A stretch of 64,000 nt of DNA from Pseudotabrizicola sediminis (lineage in GTDB: Bacteria > Pseudomonadota > Alphaproteobacteria > Rhodobacterales > Rhodobacteraceae). The notes beneath the pieces were generated by a model that ran no database searches, had not been told where the DNA came from, and saw only the letters and a program-made list of their open reading frames with translations. Positions 17,468 through 27,688 of this stretch are shown here, in pieces. Both the position numbers and the translations under genes were made by a program. The DNA is taken from assembly GCF_004745575.1 (NCBI RefSeq), contig NZ_RPEM01000005.1:62001-126000 (forward strand). Direction: 5' to 3'. Position 1 is the first letter of the stretch, and each line of letters starts with the position of its first letter.

Positions 17468-17572
17468 GGGGGCGGCCGCACATTTCCCTTGGGTCATCCG
17501 GCCCGGGGTGATCACTGGTCCGTGAACAGGCATGCGGTTGAAAAACCTTGTCAAATTTTGGCCACTTTTCGG

Positions 17573-17606
17573 AAATTTTCACAATTAACAGCAGTTGTGA
17601 AAATTT
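17573..17606. promoter_or_regulatory. 12-bp inverted repeat operator candidate upstream of acs
   Basis: AAATTTTCACAA (17573-17584) and TTGTGAAAATTT (17595-17606) are perfect reverse complements separated by 10 bp. A further direct copy of TTTTCACAA starts at 17606, exactly 30 bp after the first at 17576. The symmetry and copy number suggest a dimeric regulator site. Confidence 0.55.
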
Positions 17607-17758
17607 TTTCACAAAAAAATCCATTCAACAAAAGGGGTTACATTAAAATTATCCACGCGTTACACTCCGCTTGGGTTGGAGATGTCTTTGAGGCGGCGTT
17701 GTCGCTATCAAGGTACAGGAAGCGGGCATTGGCCTGTCCGCATTGGAGGAAAAGCCAC

Positions 17759-19723
17759 ATGTCAGATCAGGGTTCAGCACCGGGCGTCTATCACGCATCC
17801 GCTGATTTCATCGCAAATGCGCATATTGATGCAGACGGTTATGCACGGATGTATGAAGCATCTGTCGCAGATCCGGATGCCTTCTGGGCCGAACAGGCGC
17901 AGCGCATTGACTGGATCAAGCCTTTCACCAAGGTCAAGAACAGCACCTTTGACTACGGCAATGTGTCGATCAAATGGTTCGAGGACGGCACGCTGAACGT
18001 CAGCGCCAGCTGCATTGACCGCCACATGCTGACCCGTGCCGACCAGACCGCCATCATCTGGGAGCCGGACAATCCGGCGACGCCATCGCTGCACATCACC
18101 TACCGCCAGCTGCTGGAAAACACCTCGCGCATGGCGAATGTGCTCAAGGCGCAGGGTGTGGGCAAGGGCGACCGGGTGGTGCTGTATCTGCCGATGATCC
18201 CGGAAGCGGCCTATGCGATGCTGGCCTGCGCGCGGATCGGGGCCATTCATTCGGTGGTGTTCGCGGGCTTTTCGCCCGATGCTCTGGCCAACCGGATCAA
18301 CGATTCCGAAGCCAAGGTGGTGATCACCGCCGATTTCGCCCCGCGCGGCGGCAAGAAGACGGCGCTGAAATCCAACACCGACAAGGCACTGTTCGATTGC
18401 TCGGACCGGGTGAAATGTCTGGTGGTCAAGCACACCGGCGACCAGACCACCTGGATCGAGGGGCGCGACGTGGATGTGAAGGCCGAGATGGCCGCCGCCA
18501 AGCCCTATTGCGCCTATGTCGAGGTGGGTGCCGAAGACCCGCTGTTCATCCTGTACACATCAGGCTCGACCGGGCGGCCCAAGGGGGTGGTGCACACCTC
18601 GGGCGGCTATCTGGTCTATGCGGCGATGACGCATCAGTACACCTTCGATTACCATGACGGCGATGTGTTCTGGTGCACCGCCGATGTGGGCTGGGTGACC
18701 GGGCACAGCTATATCATCTATGGTCCGCTGGCGAATGGCGCGACCACGATCATGTTCGAGGGCGTGCCGACATTCCCCGATGCCGGGCGGTTCTGGGAGG
18801 TCTGTGCCAAGCACAAGGTCACCCAGTTCTACACCGCGCCGACCGCGATCCGCAGCCTGATGGGCATGGGCACCGACTGGGTGGAAAAGCACGATCTGTC
18901 TTCGCTCAAGCTGCTGGGCACCGTGGGCGAGCCGATCAACCCAGAAGCGTGGAACTGGTACAACACCCATGTCGGCAAAGGGAAGTGCCCGATTGTCGAT
19001 ACGTTCTGGCAGACCGAAACCGGCGGCCATCTGATCACGCCGCTGCCGGGGGCCATCGGGCAGAAGCCGGGGGCGGCGACCAAGCCGTTCTTTGGCATCA
19101 AGCCGCTGGTGCTGGACCCCGCCAATGCCGAGGTACAGACAGAGACGGCTGCCGTGGGGGTCTTGTGCATCACCGACAGCTGGCCGGGCATGATGCGCAC
19201 CCTGTGGGGCGATCACGCGCGGTTTGAAGAGGCGTATTTCAGCCAGTACCGGGGGTACTATTTCACCGGCGACGGTTGCCGCCGGGACGAGGATGGCGAC
19301 TACTGGATCACCGGGCGAGTCGATGACGTGATCAACGTCAGCGGCCACCGGATGGGCACCGCGGAAGTGGAATCGGCGCTGGTGGCGCATGAAGCGGTGG
19401 CCGAGGCGGCGGTGGTGGGCTACCCGCATGACATCAAGGGGCAGGGCATCTATGCCTATGTCACGCTGATGAACGGGGTCGATCCGACCGATGCCCTGCG
19501 CAAGGAGCTGGAGGTCTGGGTCCGCACCGAGATTGGCCCGATTGCCAAGCCCGATCTGATCCAATGGGCACCGGGCCTGCCGAAGACGCGGTCGGGCAAG
19601 ATCATGCGCCGTATCCTGCGCAAGATTGCCGAGAACGATTTCGCAGCCCTTGGCGATACCAGCACGCTGGCCGATCCTTCGGTGGTCGATGATCTGATCG
19701 ACAACCGGATGAACCGGGGCTGA
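17759..19723 (+). CDS. acs: acetyl-CoA synthetase
   Basis: 654 aa, normal for AMP-forming acetate-CoA ligases. The adenylate-forming P-loop [15 protein letters not shown], the FWQTETGGH motif, the hinge region [19 protein letters not shown] and the catalytic lysine in [13 protein letters not shown] are all intact. It converts acetate, ATP and CoA to acetyl-CoA, AMP and PPi. The start ATG has GGAGGA 8 bp upstream; in-frame extension to 17489 crosses the AT-rich regulatory region. adk follows after 15 bp, suited to recycle the AMP. Propionyl-CoA synthetase is a less likely reading. Confidence 0.95.
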
Positions 19724-19738
19724 GGGGGCATGCGCGAC

Positions 19739-20410
19739 ATGACAACCCCGACCGTTCTGATCCTGCTTGGGCCCCCGGGCGCGGGCAAAGGCACGCAGGC
19801 CCGCATTCTGGAAGAGGACTTCGGTCTGGTGCAGCTGTCGACCGGCGATCTGTTGCGTTCAGCCGTTGCCTCGGGCAGTGCCGCGGGCCAGCAGGCCCGC
19901 GCGGTGATGGAGGCAGGCGGGCTGGTCAGTGACGAGATCGTTCTGGCCATCCTGAAAGACCGGATGAACCAGCCGGATGTGGCAAAGGGCATCATCCTCG
20001 ACGGCTTTCCGCGCACCGACCGGCAGGCCGCCGATCTGGACGCGTTGCTGGCGACATCGGGTCAGCGTGTCAACGCCGCCATCAGCCTTGAGGTCGATGA
20101 CGAGGCGATGGTGGGCCGTGTTGCGGGCCGTTACACCTGCGGCGGCTGCGGCGAAGGCTATCACGATACATTCAAACAGCCCGCGACAGCGGGCGTTTGC
20201 GACAAATGTGGCGGCACGGCGTTCAAGCGCCGGGCTGACGACAACGCCGAAACTGTGCGGGAACGGCTGAAAGCCTACCACGCGCAGACGGCACCGCTGA
20301 TCACCTATTACGAGGGCAAAGGCGTTCTGCAACGGATCGACGCGATGGGTGACATCGCGGCCATCCGGCAGACACTGGGCGGCATCGTGGCAGGTGTGTC
20401 AGCGCATTAA
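19739..20410 (+). CDS. adk: adenylate kinase (zinc-finger LID type)
   Basis: 223 aa. P-loop LLGPPGAGKGTQAR at the N-terminus, the NMP-binding QLSTGDLLRSAVASG, FPRTDRQA, and a long LID with two Cys pairs, CGGCG and CDKCGG, which should bind zinc structurally. It converts AMP and ATP to two ADP. Two ATGs are in frame; the second (19739) is about 10 bp after GAGGGGG, the first only 1 bp after it, so the second is preferred. Encoded right behind acs, it is well placed to remove AMP formed during acetate activation. It could be the main cellular Adk or an extra copy beside one in a ribosomal-protein operon. Confidence 0.93.
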   Translation: MTTPTVLILLGPPGAGKGTQARILEEDFGLVQLSTGDLLRSAVASGSAAGQQARAVMEAGGLVSDEIVLAILKDRMNQPDVAKGIILDGFPRTDRQAADLDALLATSGQRVNAAISLEVDDEAMVGRVAGRYTCGGCGEGYHDTFKQPATAGVCDKCGGTAFKRRADDNAETVRERLKAYHAQTAPLITYYEGKGVLQRIDAMGDIAAIRQTLGGIVAGVSAH

Positions 20411-20470: not shown

Positions 20471-20728
20471 ATGGCGGACAAATCTTCGTCCAGCGCCTAT
20501 TGGGCAGCAAACCTGCGGGTGATTTATATTTCGCTCGCAATCTGGTTCATCTGCTCGTTCGGCATTGGCATCCTGCTGCGGCCAGCCCTTTCGGGCATTT
20601 CGATCGGCGGCGCCGACCTTGGTTTCTGGTTCGCCCAGAACGGGTCGATCTACGTGTTCCTCGTGTTGATTTTTGTCTATGCGGCAAAAATGAACAAGAT
20701 CGACCGCGACCACGGCGTAGAAGAATAA
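20471..20728 (+). CDS. DUF4212 small membrane subunit of the symporter
   Basis: 85 aa with two hydrophobic segments (about residues 15-37 and 52-72) around a short loop, ending in the charged MNKIDRDHGVEE. This is the DUF4212 (sodium/substrate symporter small subunit) pattern; the gene is almost always found directly before an acetate-type sodium:solute symporter, as here (10 bp spacing). It probably associates with that transporter in the inner membrane. RBS AGGGAG precedes the ATG. Confidence 0.9.
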   Translation: MADKSSSSAYWAANLRVIYISLAIWFICSFGIGILLRPALSGISIGGADLGFWFAQNGSIYVFLVLIFVYAAKMNKIDRDHGVEE

Positions 20729-20738
20729 GGGGGGGCAA

Positions 20739-22685
20739 ATGGATCAGTTTACTCTCAACCTTATCGTCATCGGCCTGTCGTTCTGCCTTTATTTCGGGAT
20801 CGCCTTCTGGGCTCGCGCCGGAACAACCGCAGAATTCTATGCGGCTGGCCAGGGCGTTGGCCCCGTGGTCAACGGCATGGCAACGGCGGCTGACTGGATG
20901 TCGGCGGCATCGTTCATTTCGATGGCCGGTCTGATCGCCTTTGGCGGCTACAACAACTCGGTCTTCCTGATGGGCTGGACCGGCGGCTATGTGCTGCTGG
21001 CGCTTCTTCTTGCCCCTTATCTGCGCAAATTCGGCAAGTTCACCGTGCCGGAATTCGTGGGCGACCGCTTCTACTCGACGTCGGCCCGCATGGTTGCCGT
21101 GATCTGCCTTCTGGTGATCTCGATCACCTATGTGATCGGGCAGATGGTTGGCGTGGGCGTGACCTTTGCCCGCTTTCTGGAAGTGTCGACCACAACCGGC
21201 CTTCTGATCGGTTCGGCAGTGGTGTTCGCTTATGCCGTGTTCGGCGGCATGAAGGGCATCACCTACACGCAGGTGGCGCAGTATGTGGTGCTGATCTCGG
21301 CCTATACGGTTCCGGCGATCTTTATCTCGCTCAGCCTGACCGGCAACTTCGTGCCGCAGCTTGGCCTGATCGGCGGCTATGCCCCAACCGGTGGCGATAC
21401 GTATTTCCTGGACAAGCTTGACCAGGTTGTGACGGATCTCGGCTTTGCCGCCTATACTGCAGACACGACGAACATGCTCAACATGTTCCTTGTGACCATG
21501 TCGCTGATGATCGGCACCGCGGGTCTGCCGCATGTGATCATCCGCTTCTTTACCGTGGCCAAAGTGTCCGATGCCCGCATCTCCGCTGGCTGGGCGCTGG
21601 TGTTCATCGCGCTGCTTTACACGGTTGCTCCGGCAGTCGGGTCGATGGCGCGTCTGAACATCACCACCACCTTCTGGCCTGGCGCTGTTCAGGGCGAAAC
21701 GTTCAGCCAGCCAGCCCTGTCGATCGCTGAAATCGACAGCAATCCTGATCTGGCCTGGATCCGGAACTGGGAAAAGACCGGACTGCTGTCGTTCTCTGAC
21801 CGCAACGGGGATGGCCTGATCCAGTACTTCAATGAGCCTGCACCTGTGGCTGCCGCCAACAAGGCCGTGACAGATGCAAATGCCGCCCTGACCGCCGCTG
21901 CCGCCGATGCCGACAAGGCACCGCTGGAAGCTGCTGTTGCCGCCGCCATCACCGCGCGCGACGCGGTTCTGGCCGAGACCATGCTGGGTGGCCGTTCCTT
22001 GGCTGAACAGGGCTTTGTCGGCAACGAACTGACAACCGTCAACAACGACATCATGGTTCTTGCGAACCCTGAAATCGCGGCTCTGCCGGGTTGGGTGATT
22101 GCCCTTGTGGCTGCAGGCGGTCTTGCTGCCGCGCTGTCCACCGCTGCGGGCCTGCTGCTGGCCATTTCTTCGGCCATCAGCCACGACCTGATCAAGGGCG
22201 CCCTGCGTCCGGACATCAGCGAAAAGGGCGAGCTGCTGGCAGCCCGCATCTCGATGGCCTTTGCCATCGTGCTGGCGACCTGGCTTGGTCTGAACCCGCC
22301 CGGCTTTGCCGCGCAGGTGGTGGCACTGGCCTTCGGTCTGGCGGCTGCCACGATCTTCCCGGTGCTGATGATGGGGATCTTCTCGACCTTTGTGACCAAA
22401 GAGGGTGCGATTGTGGGCATGCTGGTCGGTCTGGTTTCGACCGCCCTGTATATCTTCATCTACCTTGGGTTCTTCTTCGTGCCCGGCACCAACTGGTTGC
22501 CGAACACGCCGGCGGCACATTGGATGGGAATCTCTCCGGCGGCGTTTGGTCCAATTGGCGCCCTTCTGAACTTCGTGACCGCCTATCTGGTTTCGATGAT
22601 GACGAAAGCCCCGCCACAGGACGTGCAGGATCTGATCCAGTCGATCCGTGTGCCGAAAGGTGCAGGCGCGGCGCAGGCCCACTAA
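20739..22685 (+). CDS. sodium:solute symporter, acetate-permease-like (VC_2705-type)
   Basis: 648 aa, longer than classical ActP (about 550). The SSF core is clear: WARAGTTAEFYAAGQGVGP near residue 24, GMATAADWMSAASFISMAGL at 47-66, and LAAALSTAAGLLLAISSAIS after 460. An insertion at residues about 307-447 sits between core membrane helices; it includes an EF-hand-like loop DRNGDGLI (354-361) and an alanine-rich helix (370-412). The probable role is cation-coupled acetate or short-chain carboxylate uptake, matching acs and adk upstream; the substrate is inferred. A strong hairpin follows the stop. Confidence 0.9.
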   Translation: MDQFTLNLIVIGLSFCLYFGIAFWARAGTTAEFYAAGQGVGPVVNGMATAADWMSAASFISMAGLIAFGGYNNSVFLMGWTGGYVLLALLLAPYLRKFGKFTVPEFVGDRFYSTSARMVAVICLLVISITYVIGQMVGVGVTFARFLEVSTTTGLLIGSAVVFAYAVFGGMKGITYTQVAQYVVLISAYTVPAIFISLSLTGNFVPQLGLIGGYAPTGGDTYFLDKLDQVVTDLGFAAYTADTTNMLNMFLVTMSLMIGTAGLPHVIIRFFTVAKVSDARISAGWALVFIALLYTVAPAVGSMARLNITTTFWPGAVQGETFSQPALSIAEIDSNPDLAWIRNWEKTGLLSFSDRNGDGLIQYFNEPAPVAAANKAVTDANAALTAAAADADKAPLEAAVAAAITARDAVLAETMLGGRSLAEQGFVGNELTTVNNDIMVLANPEIAALPGWVIALVAAGGLAAALSTAAGLLLAISSAISHDLIKGALRPDISEKGELLAARISMAFAIVLATWLGLNPPGFAAQVVALAFGLAAATIFPVLMMGIFSTFVTKEGAIVGMLVGLVSTALYIFIYLGFFFVPGTNWLPNTPAAHWMGISPAAFGPIGALLNFVTAYLVSMMTKAPPQDVQDLIQSIRVPKGAGAAQAH

Positions 22686-22744: not shown

Positions 22745-24568
22745 ATGGACCACCCGATCGAGGCGATCATCGGCTTTCTGCAATCGGTCCACCCTTACGA
22801 TACCCTGCCGCAGGACGAGTTGGCGCGTGTCGCCACTTCCTTCAGCCGCAGAGAATATGCCGCCGGCGAAGAGGTGTATCACTCTGGCGAACCGCTTCGC
22901 GGCCTTTACCTGATCAAGCGCGGCTCGGTCGAGGTGCAGGAACCTTCGGGTCAGGTGATCTCGCTGCTTGGCCCCCGCAACAGCTTTGGCGAACGGGGTC
23001 TGGCGCGCGACGGGCTGGCGGTGACATCTGCACGGGTGACCGAGGAGTCCGTGCTGCTGCTGCTGCCGGTGCCGGAATTTCGCTGGCTGATTGCGACCTT
23101 CCCCGCCTTTGAACGCTTTTTCAGCCGCGGACGCGGGCATGACACGCGCGGTGCCGATCTGACCACGCAAAAGGTCGGCGATCTGATGGCGCGCAAGCCG
23201 GTGGTCGTCGGCCCGCACGAAACGGTCCGGGCGGCGGCGCGGCTGATGCGCGATGCCAGGGTGTCCTCGCTGGGCGTGGTCGAGGACGGGCGCTTTCTGG
23301 GCATTGTCACCACGCGCGACATGACAAACCGGGTGCTGGCCGATGGGCTTGACCCGTCAACCGGGGTGGCCGAGGTGATGACGCCGGACCCGATCAGCCT
23401 GCGGCCCGAGTCGCTGGGGTCGGATATTTTGCACATCATGCTGGAACACCGGATCGGGCATCTGCCGGTGGTCGAGGGCAACACATTGGTGGGCATGATC
23501 ACCCAGACCGACCTGACCCGGTTTCAGGCCGTCAGCTCGGCGCAGCTGGTGCGCGATGCCGCCACTGCCGATTCGGTGGCCGAGATGGCGGCGGTCACCG
23601 CCCGCATCCCGCGCCTGCTGGTGCAGTTGGTGGGCGGCCACAACGCGCATGAGGTGGTGACCCGCCTGATCACCGACATCGCCGATACCGTCACCCGCCG
23701 CCTGCTGGCGATGGCCGAGGCACAGCTTGGCCCTGCGCCGGTGCCTTACCTCTGGCTTGCCTGCGGAAGCCAGGGACGGCAGGAACAGACCGGGGTGTCG
23801 GATCAGGACAACTGCCTGATGATCGACGACGGCGCAACCGATGACGACATGGCGTATTTCCAGGCCCTGGCAAAGATCGTGTCCGACGGGCTGGATGCCT
23901 GCGGCTATGTCTATTGCCCCGGTGACATGATGGCGACCAACCCGCAATGGTGCCAAAGGGTGGGGGTCTGGCGCAGCTATTTCCGCAAATGGGTGCAGAC
24001 CCCGGACCCGATGGCGCAGATGCTGGCAAGCGTGATGTTCGACCTGCGCCCGATTGGCGGGCAGGCCAGCCTGTTCAGGGATCTGCAGCAGGAAACGCTG
24101 GAAATGGCGTCGCGGAATTCCATTTTCGTCGCCCATATGATCAGCAATAGCCTGAAGCACACGCCCCCCCTTGGCCTGTTGCGCGGCTTTGCCACCATCC
24201 GCTCGGGCGATTACAAGAACCATATCGACATGAAGCTGAACGGGGTGGTGCCGGTGGTGGACCTTGGCCGCATCTATGCGCTGATCGGCCAACTGGAACC
24301 GGTGAACACCCGCGCCCGGCTGGAGGCTGCGGAAGGCGCGGGGGTGATCAGCGTGTCTGGCGCCCGCGATCTGATGGAGGCCTATGACCTGATCGCACAG
24401 ACCCGGCTGGAAAGTCAGGCCCGGCTGGTGCGCTCAGGGCGCAAGCCCGACAACTTCCTGGCCCCGTCGGATATGTCCGATTTCGAACGAAGCCACCTGC
24501 GCGACGCTTTCGTCGTGGTGCGCACCATGCAATCAGCCGTGGGACAAACCCGCGGCGCCCGGAGTTGA
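22745..24568 (+). CDS. cNMP-binding / CBS / DUF294 nucleotidyltransferase-like signalling protein
   Basis: 607 aa with four modules in order. Residues about 10-135 are a cyclic-nucleotide-binding domain (EEVYHSGEPLRGLYLIKRGSVE, RNSFGERGLA). Residues 145-265 are a CBS pair (VVGPHETVRAAARLMRD, HRIGHLPVVEGNTLVGMI). Residues 275-430 are a DUF294 domain with the GlnD-like nucleotidyltransferase motif GSQGRQEQTGVSDQDNC. The rest is a DUF294-C substrate domain. It probably modifies or senses a partner in response to nucleotides. Such proteins are regularly encoded beside DUF4212 symporters. Target and ligand unknown. Confidence 0.9.
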   Translation: MDHPIEAIIGFLQSVHPYDTLPQDELARVATSFSRREYAAGEEVYHSGEPLRGLYLIKRGSVEVQEPSGQVISLLGPRNSFGERGLARDGLAVTSARVTEESVLLLLPVPEFRWLIATFPAFERFFSRGRGHDTRGADLTTQKVGDLMARKPVVVGPHETVRAAARLMRDARVSSLGVVEDGRFLGIVTTRDMTNRVLADGLDPSTGVAEVMTPDPISLRPESLGSDILHIMLEHRIGHLPVVEGNTLVGMITQTDLTRFQAVSSAQLVRDAATADSVAEMAAVTARIPRLLVQLVGGHNAHEVVTRLITDIADTVTRRLLAMAEAQLGPAPVPYLWLACGSQGRQEQTGVSDQDNCLMIDDGATDDDMAYFQALAKIVSDGLDACGYVYCPGDMMATNPQWCQRVGVWRSYFRKWVQTPDPMAQMLASVMFDLRPIGGQASLFRDLQQETLEMASRNSIFVAHMISNSLKHTPPLGLLRGFATIRSGDYKNHIDMKLNGVVPVVDLGRIYALIGQLEPVNTRARLEAAEGAGVISVSGARDLMEAYDLIAQTRLESQARLVRSGRKPDNFLAPSDMSDFERSHLRDAFVVVRTMQSAVGQTRGARS

Positions 24569-25093: not shown

Positions 25094-25105
25094 GGAGGGA
25101 CTGTG

Positions 25106-25498
25106 ATGACGGCCGAAGGGGGGAGACGGCACCGCGTCCTCGTGGTCGAGGATGAGGACAATATTGCCATTGCGCTGGATTATCTGATGACCCGCGAAGG
25201 CTATGACCATGACCGCATCGCCAACGGGGCCGATGCCTTGTCGCGCATCCGCCACACGCACCCCGATCTGGTGCTGCTGGATGTGATGCTGCCAGAGGTG
25301 TCGGGGTATGAAATCTGTCAGGGCGTCCGGCAGGACCCAAGCCTTGATCATGTGAAAATCCTGATGATGACTGCGCGCGGATCGGCAATTGAACGGCGCA
25401 AGGGGCTGGCGCTGGGGGCGGACGGGTTCATCTCGAAGCCCTTCGAGCTGAAGGAATTGCGCGACGAGGTGCGCCGTCTTCTGATTGCGGAGGGCTAG
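25106..25498 (+). CDS. single-domain response regulator
   Basis: 130 aa receiver domain with no output domain. The acidic pair is in VLVVEDEDN, the phospho-acceptor is D59 in LVLLDVMLPEVSGYE, the switch Thr is in ILMMTARG, and the invariant Lys is in FISKPFELKEL. A GTG codon directly precedes the ATG and could be the real start. [12 protein letters not shown]. It lies 2 bp before the sensor-exonuclease gene, so that protein or its partners are likely to communicate with it. Confidence 0.93.
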   Translation: MTAEGGRRHRVLVVEDEDNIAIALDYLMTREGYDHDRIANGADALSRIRHTHPDLVLLDVMLPEVSGYEICQGVRQDPSLDHVKILMMTARGSAIERRKGLALGADGFISKPFELKELRDEVRRLLIAEG

Positions 25499-25500
25499 GG

Positions 25501-27573
25501 GTGCTGCTGAGGCTGTCGCTGCGGTTGCGGATCTTTCTGCTGTTTGCAGCGCTGGCAGCGGCTGCGATGGGGGCCGTCACGGCCGGGCTATGGCTGGGGT
25601 ATCAGCGTCTGGGTGACCCCCAGACGCTGAATGCCTTTGTGCAGGGCGGCGTTATCGCCGGTTTTGTCATTCTGGGGGTGGTGGCCTGGGTCTGGTATCT
25701 GTTCGATGTGAACGTGGCGCGTCCCATAGACGCGCTGGCCGGGGCGTTGCGGGCGCGGGCGCATGCCGATGTGACCGGCGGCATTGACGGAAAAATCGCG
25801 AGCTACCTGGGGGATCTTGCCCCCGCCGCGACGGCGGCTGCGGCATCTCTGTCCGAAACCCGCAATGCCCTGGCCGAAGCGGTGGCGCGCGAAACCACCC
25901 GGCTGACGGTTGAAAAATCGCGGCTGGAGGCCCTGTTGTCTGACGTCGATGCCGGGGTGATCCTGTGCTCGGGTGATCACACGCTGGCGTTCTACAACGG
26001 GCAGGCGGTTGATCTGATGGGGGCGGGCATGGCCGCGCCGGGGCTGGACCGCCGCCTGTTCGACTACCTGCGTGAAGGCCCGATTCTGCTGGCCCACGCG
26101 CGCCTGATTGCCACCGGCGACCGCGACGCCGCGTCAGACCTGCTGTGTGCGACGCTGACGGGAAGCAGGGTCCTGTCGGCCCGGATGCGGCTGATGGCGG
26201 CAGATAACGGCTCTGTGCCCGGCTATGTGCTGACCCTGCGCGACGTGACCGCCGACCACGCCACCCACACCCGGCGCGAGGCGTTGCTGGCCGAAGTGTT
26301 TGACCGCGTGCGCCGCCCTGCCGCCAATCTGAGCACGCTGATGGCGGCCATTCCCGAGGGTGCTGCCGCCCCCGGCAAGCTGGACACAGCCTTGCGCGAA
26401 GAGGTGGCGGCCCTGGCCGCCGCCGTCACCGACCTGAGCCAGCGGCATGACGCAGGCCGGGAAGGCTGGTCGCTGACCATGACCCGCGCATCCGACCTGC
26501 TGGACGGTCTGCGCGCCCGCATGGAGGGCGAGGGTCTTGCCGCCGAGACCACGGCAGATGCCATGCTGCTGGGCTGCAACGGGTTTGAGGTGATCGCGCT
26601 GCTGGCGGGCCTGACCGAGGCCATGGCGCGCGAGGGCATCGCGCGCAGCTTCCGGCTGCAGATCGAGGAAGAAGGCACCGGCGCGCTGATCCGGCTGGTC
26701 TGGCAAGGGGCCGCGCTGCCGGTGGCGCGCTTGGAGCACTGGCTGGATGCGCCGCTGGAGCCGGGCATCACCTCGGCACCGCGCCGGTCTGTGCTGGCCA
26801 CGCATGGCACCGACATCTGGCCCGAGGCGGTCGGGATGGGCGCGCACAGTCTGTGCATGCCGATCCCGCAGGCCCGCCGCGTGGTGCGCCGCCCGGCCCC
26901 GATTGCGCGGCCTGTGGTTTATGACTTCGATCTTTTGTCCAAGGCACGCAGCGCCGCAGTTCAGGATGCGCGGCTGCTGGACCTGACCTATGTGGTGTTC
27001 GACACCGAAACCACCGGGCTGTTGCCGGGGCAGGGTGACGAGATCGTGCAGATCGCCGCCGTGCGGATCGTCAATGGCCGTCGGGTCGAAGGCGAGGTGT
27101 TCAACACGCTGGTCAACCCGCGCCGCCCGATCCCGCTGAGTTCGACCGAGGTGCATGGCATCACCGACGCCATGGTGCAGGATGCGCCCCATGTCGAAGA
27201 GATCGCCATCCGCTTCCACAAATTTGCCGAAGGTGCGGTGCTGGTGGCGCATAATGCACCGTTTGACATGGCCTTCCTGCGCCGGCTTGAGCCCGCAATC
27301 GGCTTGCAGTTCGACAACCCGGTGTTCGACACCGTCCTGCTGTCCGCCGTGGTATATGGCCAGCACGAGGTGCACAGCCTGGACGCGCTGTCGCACCGGC
27401 TAGGCATCACCATTCCCGAAGAGGCGCGGCACACGGCCATTGGCGACACCATTGCCACGGCCGAGGCGTTCCTGAAACTGTTGCCGATGGTGCAGGGCCG
27501 TGGTTTTGCCACCTTTGGCGCGGTTCTGTCGGAAGTGCGCCGCCACGGGCGGTTGCTGAAGGATTTGAACTGA
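25501..27573 (+). CDS. membrane sensor (degenerate histidine-kinase-like) fused to DEDDh 3'-5' exonuclease
   Basis: 690 aa, GTG start 2 bp after the response regulator stop. Domains: two membrane helices (about 8-32 and 48-68), a HAMP-like linker (70-115), a PAS-like domain (140-250), then a region laid out like a histidine kinase. In its dimerisation helix, LLAEVFDRVRRPAANLSTLM (262-281), the phospho-His is absent. The ATP-binding part (330-460) has no convincing N or G boxes. Residues 495-690 form an intact DnaQ-type exonuclease with D501/E503 (VVFDTETTG), D589 (HNAPFD) and H644/D649 (HTAIGD). It is not the replicative epsilon subunit; the nucleic-acid substrate and signal are unknown. Confidence 0.88.
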   Translation: MLLRLSLRLRIFLLFAALAAAAMGAVTAGLWLGYQRLGDPQTLNAFVQGGVIAGFVILGVVAWVWYLFDVNVARPIDALAGALRARAHADVTGGIDGKIASYLGDLAPAATAAAASLSETRNALAEAVARETTRLTVEKSRLEALLSDVDAGVILCSGDHTLAFYNGQAVDLMGAGMAAPGLDRRLFDYLREGPILLAHARLIATGDRDAASDLLCATLTGSRVLSARMRLMAADNGSVPGYVLTLRDVTADHATHTRREALLAEVFDRVRRPAANLSTLMAAIPEGAAAPGKLDTALREEVAALAAAVTDLSQRHDAGREGWSLTMTRASDLLDGLRARMEGEGLAAETTADAMLLGCNGFEVIALLAGLTEAMAREGIARSFRLQIEEEGTGALIRLVWQGAALPVARLEHWLDAPLEPGITSAPRRSVLATHGTDIWPEAVGMGAHSLCMPIPQARRVVRRPAPIARPVVYDFDLLSKARSAAVQDARLLDLTYVVFDTETTGLLPGQGDEIVQIAAVRIVNGRRVEGEVFNTLVNPRRPIPLSSTEVHGITDAMVQDAPHVEEIAIRFHKFAEGAVLVAHNAPFDMAFLRRLEPAIGLQFDNPVFDTVLLSAVVYGQHEVHSLDALSHRLGITIPEEARHTAIGDTIATAEAFLKLLPMVQGRGFATFGAVLSEVRRHGRLLKDLN

Positions 27574-27612: not shown

Positions 27613-27688
<76 letters not shown>

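Follow-up and report, generated by a model that had tools for sequence, protein, structure and literature searches.

The window analysed here, a stretch of 64,000 nt of Pseudotabrizicola sediminis (NZ_RPEM01000005.1, positions 62,001-126,000, forward strand), carries on its + strand a run of genes encoding, in this order, an acetyl-CoA synthetase, an adenylate kinase, the small and then the large subunit of a symporter, a DUF294 protein, an orphan protein of 173 aa, a receiver-only response regulator and a 690-aa fusion protein ending in an exonuclease. The genes and the parts of the fusion protein are as follows.

17786..19723, + strand: AMP-forming acetyl-CoA synthetase (TIGR02188, E 6.9e-302)
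19730..20410, + strand: adenylate kinase (TIGR01351, E 6.5e-71, above cut-off)
20471..20728, + strand: symporter small subunit, DUF4212 (TIGR03647, E 7.3e-32)
20739..22685, + strand: VC_2705-family sodium/solute symporter, large subunit (TIGR03648, E 4.1e-234)
22745..24568, + strand: nucleotidyltransferase-like protein with cNMP-binding, two CBS, DUF294 and DUF294_C domains, 607 aa
24572..25093, + strand: 173-aa orphan protein without family match
25103..25498, + strand: receiver-only response regulator, 131 aa (PF00072, E 9.6e-27)
25501..27573, + strand: pseudo-histidine-kinase/exonuclease fusion, 690 aa, GTG start, stop ending at 27573
25501..25764, + strand: N-terminal hydrophobic helices, residues 1-88
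25942..26259, + strand: PAS domain, residues 148-253 (PAS_4 in the window and in relatives)
26248..26460, + strand: DHp-like helical hairpin, residues 250-320
26302-26304, + strand: D268, at the position of the kinase phospho-acceptor His
26479..26880, + strand: CA-like (HATPase-fold) domain, residues 327-460, without N, G1 and G2 boxes
26881..26970, + strand: low-confidence linker, residues 461-490 (pLDDT 53-64 in blocks of ten)
26992..27471, + strand: DEDDh exonuclease, residues 498-657 (D501, E503, D589, H644, D649)
27613-27688, - strand: tRNA-Ala(GGC), directly downstream of the exonuclease gene

The coordinates of the acetyl-CoA synthetase are those of the tested part of ORF 17489-19723. 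Related loci also have the adenylate kinase gene right behind that of the acetyl-CoA synthetase, and the enzyme may recycle the AMP arising from acetate activation. The orphan protein has a hydrophobic start, and a similar ORF is present in 188/246 related loci.

A kinase-like core joined to a DEDDh exonuclease

The fusion ORF has the start and length given in a first-pass annotation made from the sequence, and 2 bp separate it from the receiver gene, which ends at 25498. The complete DEDDh exonuclease described there is confirmed, RNase_T of Pfam matching residues 498-657 with E 1.9e-37 and the five catalytic residues being invariant in a 52-sequence alignment. D501, E503, D589, H644 and D649 are complete in 245/246 relatives compared, so the catalytic residues are not replaced in most orthologues, an outcome that would have spoken against the annotation. 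The fold lies closest to those of DnaQ/PolC/ExoX/RNase T-type nucleases. Judged by fold and these five residues, the domain is a DEDDh (DnaQ-fold) exonuclease with predicted 3'-5' activity; it shares fold and residues with DnaQ- and PolC-type exonucleases and, unlike the DnaQ-like sequences tested, which form their own starred clade in the tree, is fused to a sensor. A role in anti-phage defence was considered and rejected, the PADLOC matches arising via the DEDDh domain only, with none for the DUF294 or the 173-aa protein.

The two membrane helices proposed earlier correspond to a hydrophobicity pattern seen by eye and to helices 7-37 and 40-88 of an AlphaFold2 model, and residues 1-88 are presumed to form a membrane anchor. 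A HAMP-like linker found no backing, as Pfam HAMP matches 0/52 family members at E<=0.01. The PAS-like domain was recovered: PAS_4 matches the window protein with E 0.0015, which is under the Pfam cut-off, and 29/52 relatives match at E<=0.01 (best 1.6e-9).

AlphaFold2 models the full protein with a mean pLDDT of 86.9 and a weak linker at about residues 461-490; residues 246-470 alone (52 sequences) give a mean pLDDT of 91.1 and a pTM of 0.75 and are predicted to fold into a helical hairpin with an alpha/beta domain behind it. A Foldseek search of the PDB returns DivL as the top match of the kinase-like part (4q20_B, E 4.3e-10, probability 1.00); the hybrid regulator LvrB and HK853 with its receiver come next, and these top hits are histidine-kinase cores. 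Whole-length TM-scores are only about 0.44 and the rmsd is large, the domains therefore matching known kinases singly and not as a rigid whole. The sequence profile of the region likewise finds solved kinases (4u7n, E 3e-9), Pfam HisKA matches 5/52 members weakly (best E 2.4e-4) and HATPase_c 2/52 (best E 0.014). The fold predicted for this region is thus kinase-like, and not the unrelated one that would have counted against the annotation.

The kinase layout lacks the phospho-accepting His and the ATP boxes, as had been claimed. D268 occupies the acceptor position in the window, and in the 115 relatives bearing the DHp hairpin this column holds Glu in 58, Asp in 46, other residues in 11 and His in 0, while an Arg three residues further on is kept in 108/115. 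A pattern search for G1/G2-type boxes matches one of the 115 (L033); the absence of the N box was judged from the alignment by eye. The CA-like domain retains a recognisable remnant of the kinase-typical HGG.xW stretch, and no intact kinase core was found among the aligned relatives.

These counts refer to a comparison set of 246 proteins, 175 known by genome handle and 71 from named genomes. An original tally of 247 sequences had a complete nuclease site in 246; setting L084 aside gave 245/246. In L084 (622-2130) an exonuclease of the same type is joined in one ORF to a part that by eye resembles an EamA transporter, and this joining may be real or an accident of reading frame. Left out of the counts are the window's own loci L001 and L003, the DnaQ locus L002, L025, whose gene is divided between two ORFs, L091 (an exonuclease-DUF294 fusion), the partial L196, L204 and L216, and further any duplicate or shorter copy of one locus. 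The sole broken site belongs to L043 (4995-6299, genome G067), an exonuclease homologue with four of the five catalytic residues replaced.

A search for the same fusion in other genomes detected relatives in alpha-, beta- and gammaproteobacteria and in some other records. The fusion or a shorter form is present in 112/196 Rhodobacterales genomes (E 1e-28; the window's own counted), and 20/240 genomes of a class-level sample match at E 1e-28, partly through the nuclease only. DHp-bearing forms occur, among the best 80 of a larger number of matches, in at least 25 named genomes of Alpha-, at least 19 of Beta- and at least 5 of Gammaproteobacteria and at least 2 of Magnetococcia, and further in at least 3 records titled Deltaproteobacteria or Desulfuromonadales, at least 1 of Nitrospirota and at least 1 of Chloroflexota, many of these genomes being metagenome bins. 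Reduced forms were seen by eye, consisting of the membrane part and the nuclease only (L082, L083) or of the nuclease alone (L086). Together, family members whose pseudokinase module is intact, trimmed or lost make up a natural series. Our search of the open-access literature, which partly covered the best-ranked matches only, found no description of the fusion or its neighbourhood.

Coupling of receiver and hairpin, and a candidate source of phosphate

The regulator encoded upstream lacks an output domain, as stated earlier: it is a receiver of 131 aa, in which the acidic pair E16-D17, D60, T90 and K112 are all present. Across the receivers compared, the phospho-accepting Asp is kept in 105/107 and the Lys in 106/107. 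Taking as adjacent a receiver gene on the same strand just upstream, at a cut-off of 55 bits, we find one next to 106/115 DHp-bearing proteins versus 0/131 proteins without DHp. The 246 proteins fall into 106 with DHp, CA and adjacent receiver, 9 with DHp and CA without adjacent receiver, 16 with CA alone and no receiver (L128, counted here, carries a receiver-like ORF at 41 bits), and 115 with neither DHp nor CA and no receiver; a receiver without DHp occurs in 0. Since 16 proteins keep the CA-like domain without DHp and receiver, this domain has some other use.

A FastTree phylogeny of the exonuclease domain requires a minimum of 13 changes of the DHp label and of 16 changes of the receiver label. 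In 8 independent pairs the receiver follows the DHp in 7.5 on average and does the opposite in 0 (sign test, median p 0.008, range 0.008-0.06), L186 and L212 being labelled receiver-positive and FastTree supports being weaker than those of a full search. A single deletion cannot explain the joint loss of receiver and DHp because the membrane and PAS parts separate them. Exceptions exist: of the nine DHp-bearing proteins without adjacent receiver, L186 and L212 have one elsewhere in the locus, while L203, L224, L241, L243, L245, L258 and L266 have none in the locus, and in L241, L243 and L258 the conserved DHp Arg is Gln. Taken as a comparative pattern, receiver and DHp are coupled over evolution.

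DivL offers the closest comparison. With it the window protein has in common a DHp and CA fold, the missing phospho-acceptor His, a PAS domain ahead and a response regulator as partner, putative for the window protein, which DivL binds in its phosphorylated form; excerpts of PMC4211667 describe DivL as being without kinase activity and yet binding DivK~P. DivL has Tyr at the site; the same excerpts report that its H, N, G1, F and G2 boxes are retained and that CckA is what it acts on (PMC4211667). The window protein differs in having lost the ATP boxes and in carrying a fused nuclease.

An intact kinase is encoded close by in many distant relatives. Outside the close Rhodobacteraceae set, 30/48 DHp-bearing loci hold a kinase similar to that of Azonexus, all 30 having an SHELRTP-type motif and a G2 box; the kinase gene ends directly ahead of the receiver gene in 19 of them and lies further off in the locus in others. 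No kinase of this type was found in the loci of the other 198 proteins, many of which are short, nor next to these genes in the window. The Azonexus kinase matches HisKA (E 6.8e-19) and HATPase_c (E 3.6e-29). Its residues 10-570, the sole kinase so tested, match PDB 10ED at E 6e-75, described in excerpts of PMC13022988 as an SLC5-STAC structure of CbrA, and because of this match we call the kinases SLC5/STAC-type. Pfam SSF gave no match to the kinase membrane part even at E 10, and comparing this part pairwise with the symporter of the window gave no significant similarity (E 0.037). The order in the Azonexus locus (L264) is acs, kinase, receiver, pseudokinase-exonuclease, DUF294, a 220-aa protein and symporter.

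P. sediminis itself encodes, on another contig, a full-length homologue of the Azonexus kinase (42% identity, E 1.1e-195), beside which lie a second receiver-only gene, its product 39% identical to that of the window, and a RamB-like regulator gene. This row of kinase homologue, receiver-only regulator and RamB-like regulator (L283:6269-11080, contig C67) is possibly a second acetate-sensing system of the same genome.

The DUF294 nucleotidyltransferase and parallels in acetate and pyruvate use

Comparative sequence data identify as the closest functional partner of the exonuclease the adjacent DUF294 nucleotidyltransferase, which the first-pass annotation had not named and which we take to be GlnD-like. 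Both proteins are present in the same 112/196 Rhodobacterales genomes (the lists of genome handles agree by eye), and G067, the genome with the broken nuclease site, has no DUF294 match at E 1e-10. A DUF294-like ORF (>50 bits) lies in 222/246 loci and in 162/179 loci of at least 7 kb; 17/179 loci of this length have none. The window's protein has G341, S342, D353 and D355, and these motif residues G, S, D and D are intact in 170/170 aligned proteins. In genome G480 a single 705-aa protein combines the exonuclease (RNase_T, E 3.2e-34) with two CBS domains, DUF294 and DUF294_C, and the next long ORF upstream of it seems, as read, to encode this type of symporter. Matches that run without a stop along almost the full length of the fusion occur in 5/299 genomes of a phylum sample, G480 included, whose domains alone among the five were checked with Pfam.

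The co-occurrence in 112/196 genomes together with the five one-ORF fusions suggests a shared substrate or step. The co-occurrence may partly reflect linkage because both genes mostly share one gene cluster. Co-occurrence, fusions and intact motifs together indicate that nuclease and nucleotidyltransferase probably form the core unit, around which, from the sequence comparison, the membrane part, PAS domain, pseudokinase and receiver look like layers of control.

The genome of Rhodobacter capsulatus (locus L199) encodes three DUF294 proteins (L288, L291, L294), 67-70% identical to that of the window; the gene of L288 adjoins a pseudokinase-exonuclease gene, and that of L291 is followed directly by a receiver-only gene. 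The 220-aa protein encoded behind DUF294 in Azonexus (L264:11887-12549) resembles, by eye, a degenerate exonuclease; considered as a counterpart of the P. putida exonuclease pp_0353, it was rejected for giving no match to Pfam at E 0.01 and, on inspection, lacking the catalytic motifs.

The arrangement recalls CrbS/CrbR and RpuS/RpuR, which serve acetate and pyruvate use, and CbrA; these involve an SLC5/STAC-type kinase, as do, by the one match tested, the loci of distant relatives here, with acetate genes near. CrbR and RpuR are LuxR-type transcription factors according to excerpts of PMC9100948; unlike these, the regulator in the window is receiver-only, its output presumably being the nuclease. 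It also resembles pp_0354/pp_0353 of P. putida, a gene pair for a CBS-domain protein and an RNase_T exonuclease that is targeted by MxtR/ErdR. Excerpts of PMC9927547 describe pp_0353 (exonuclease) and pp_0354 (CBS protein, an ErdR target) as organised in one operon. They report slowed growth on pyruvate for a pp_0353 mutant, as for mxtR and erdR mutants, but not for a pp_0354 mutant, and no defect of either gene's mutant on 20 mM acetate, while transposon data that they cite suggest that pp_0353 may matter at 5 mM acetate; the authors speculated that pp_0353 acts in mRNA decay (PMC9927547). Orthology with pp_0353 is unsupported, since in the comparable gene pair of another Pseudomonas (L305) the exonuclease stands alone, and its very long branch could not be placed in the tree; we keep it as a parallel gene pair only. 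In P. fluorescens, Pflu5625 combines cAMP-binding, CBS and nucleotidyltransferase domains; excerpts of PMC5715377 note a CrbR-type repeat in its promoter, predict a regulatory role through nucleotidylation and record no phenotype for the mutant. The P. putida and P. fluorescens cases are cited as parallels, not as evidence on orthology.

A proposed model for gating of the exonuclease

We propose a model according to which kinase, receiver, pseudokinase and exonuclease act in series, the exonuclease working on or against the DUF294 product in acetate and pyruvate use, and consider it somewhat better than an even bet. The kinase core without catalysis would serve as the docking and sensing module of a membrane-anchored DEDDh exonuclease. 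Most likely, an SLC5/STAC-type kinase responding to acetate or pyruvate supply would phosphorylate the receiver-only regulator, the phosphorylated receiver would dock on the DHp hairpin by analogy to DivK~P on DivL, and the resulting change would pass via the CA-like domain and the linker, switching the exonuclease on or off. The exonuclease would then probably trim nucleotides added by the cNMP/CBS/DUF294 nucleotidyltransferase, working with or against this protein, and the trimming would tune the uptake or activation of acetate or pyruvate. The kinase signal, the phosphorylation, the docking, the direction of gating and the substrate are steps that we infer, the signal of acetate or pyruvate supply being inferred from the acetate genes nearby. 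The first-pass annotation had the receiver either receiving or giving the signal; its tie to the fusion stands through the coevolution with the DHp hairpin, and the receiver more likely brings the signal, since the acceptor His is missing from the kinase-like part and many distant relatives encode an intact SLC5/STAC-type kinase in the locus. Of the reading as a whole, the degenerate kinase fold, the intact exonuclease and the tie to the receiver are upheld.

The substrate is the weakest step of the model. The fusions and the co-occurrence favour the DUF294 product; ordinary RNA or DNA is a strong rival. Gating could be as proposed with the exonuclease acting on ordinary RNA or DNA, e.g. mRNAs of carbon metabolism, and DUF294 forming a separate branch of the response, for which the nearness of the fold to DnaQ/PolC/ExoX/RNase T-type nucleases and the mRNA-decay speculation of the pp_0353 authors (PMC9927547, from excerpts) would speak; the co-occurrence with DUF294 in 112/196 genomes and the five one-ORF fusions count against this separation, which leaves it as the less expected outcome, unlikely though well worth weighing. 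A bolder form of our preferred model would be a two-component pathway with an "eraser" exonuclease as output, in which DUF294 writes nucleotides on a protein or RNA of acetate or pyruvate metabolism and the exonuclease, gated by the phosphorylated receiver, removes them. An inhibitory mark lacking its eraser fits the P. putida phenotypes because the exonuclease mutant is impaired on pyruvate and the CBS-protein mutant is not; we nevertheless hold this specific version to be doubtful, giving it roughly one chance in a handful.

Other readings concern the kinase-like core. That it is only a scaffold for dimerisation or PAS relay, the receiver acting elsewhere, agrees with the 115 proteins that keep the nuclease without DHp and CA, of which only 7 lack a match to the PAS profile; receiver and DHp are, however, lost together though not adjacent in the DNA, which makes a mere scaffold improbable. 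We give equally little weight to the protein being a sink for phosphorylated receiver that damps another pathway while the nuclease is constitutive: the window's genome does have a second receiver and kinase of the same kind elsewhere, but with its site intact in 245/246 relatives the fused nuclease would be an odd passenger. An unconventional kinase in which Asp or Glu replaces the His could be imagined from the 104/115 proteins carrying these residues at the position, and is highly implausible given that G1/G2-type ATP-box patterns are absent in 114/115. Returning to the serial model, the points against it are the pp_0354 mutant without growth phenotype, the receiver exceptions, the CA-like domains kept without DHp and receiver, the loci lacking the kinase or DUF294, and the linkage that may explain part of the co-occurrence.

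As a summary, the system is real, conserved and more coherent than the first-pass annotation could see. If the model is true, a phospho-signalling chain would end in a nuclease via a dead kinase, in several proteobacterial classes and among genes of acetate use. DUF294 proteins and exonucleases under CrbS/MxtR-type control would then share one hypothesis, that of a writer and an eraser, and the series of pseudokinase modules would make it possible to follow the conversion of a kinase core into a sensor.
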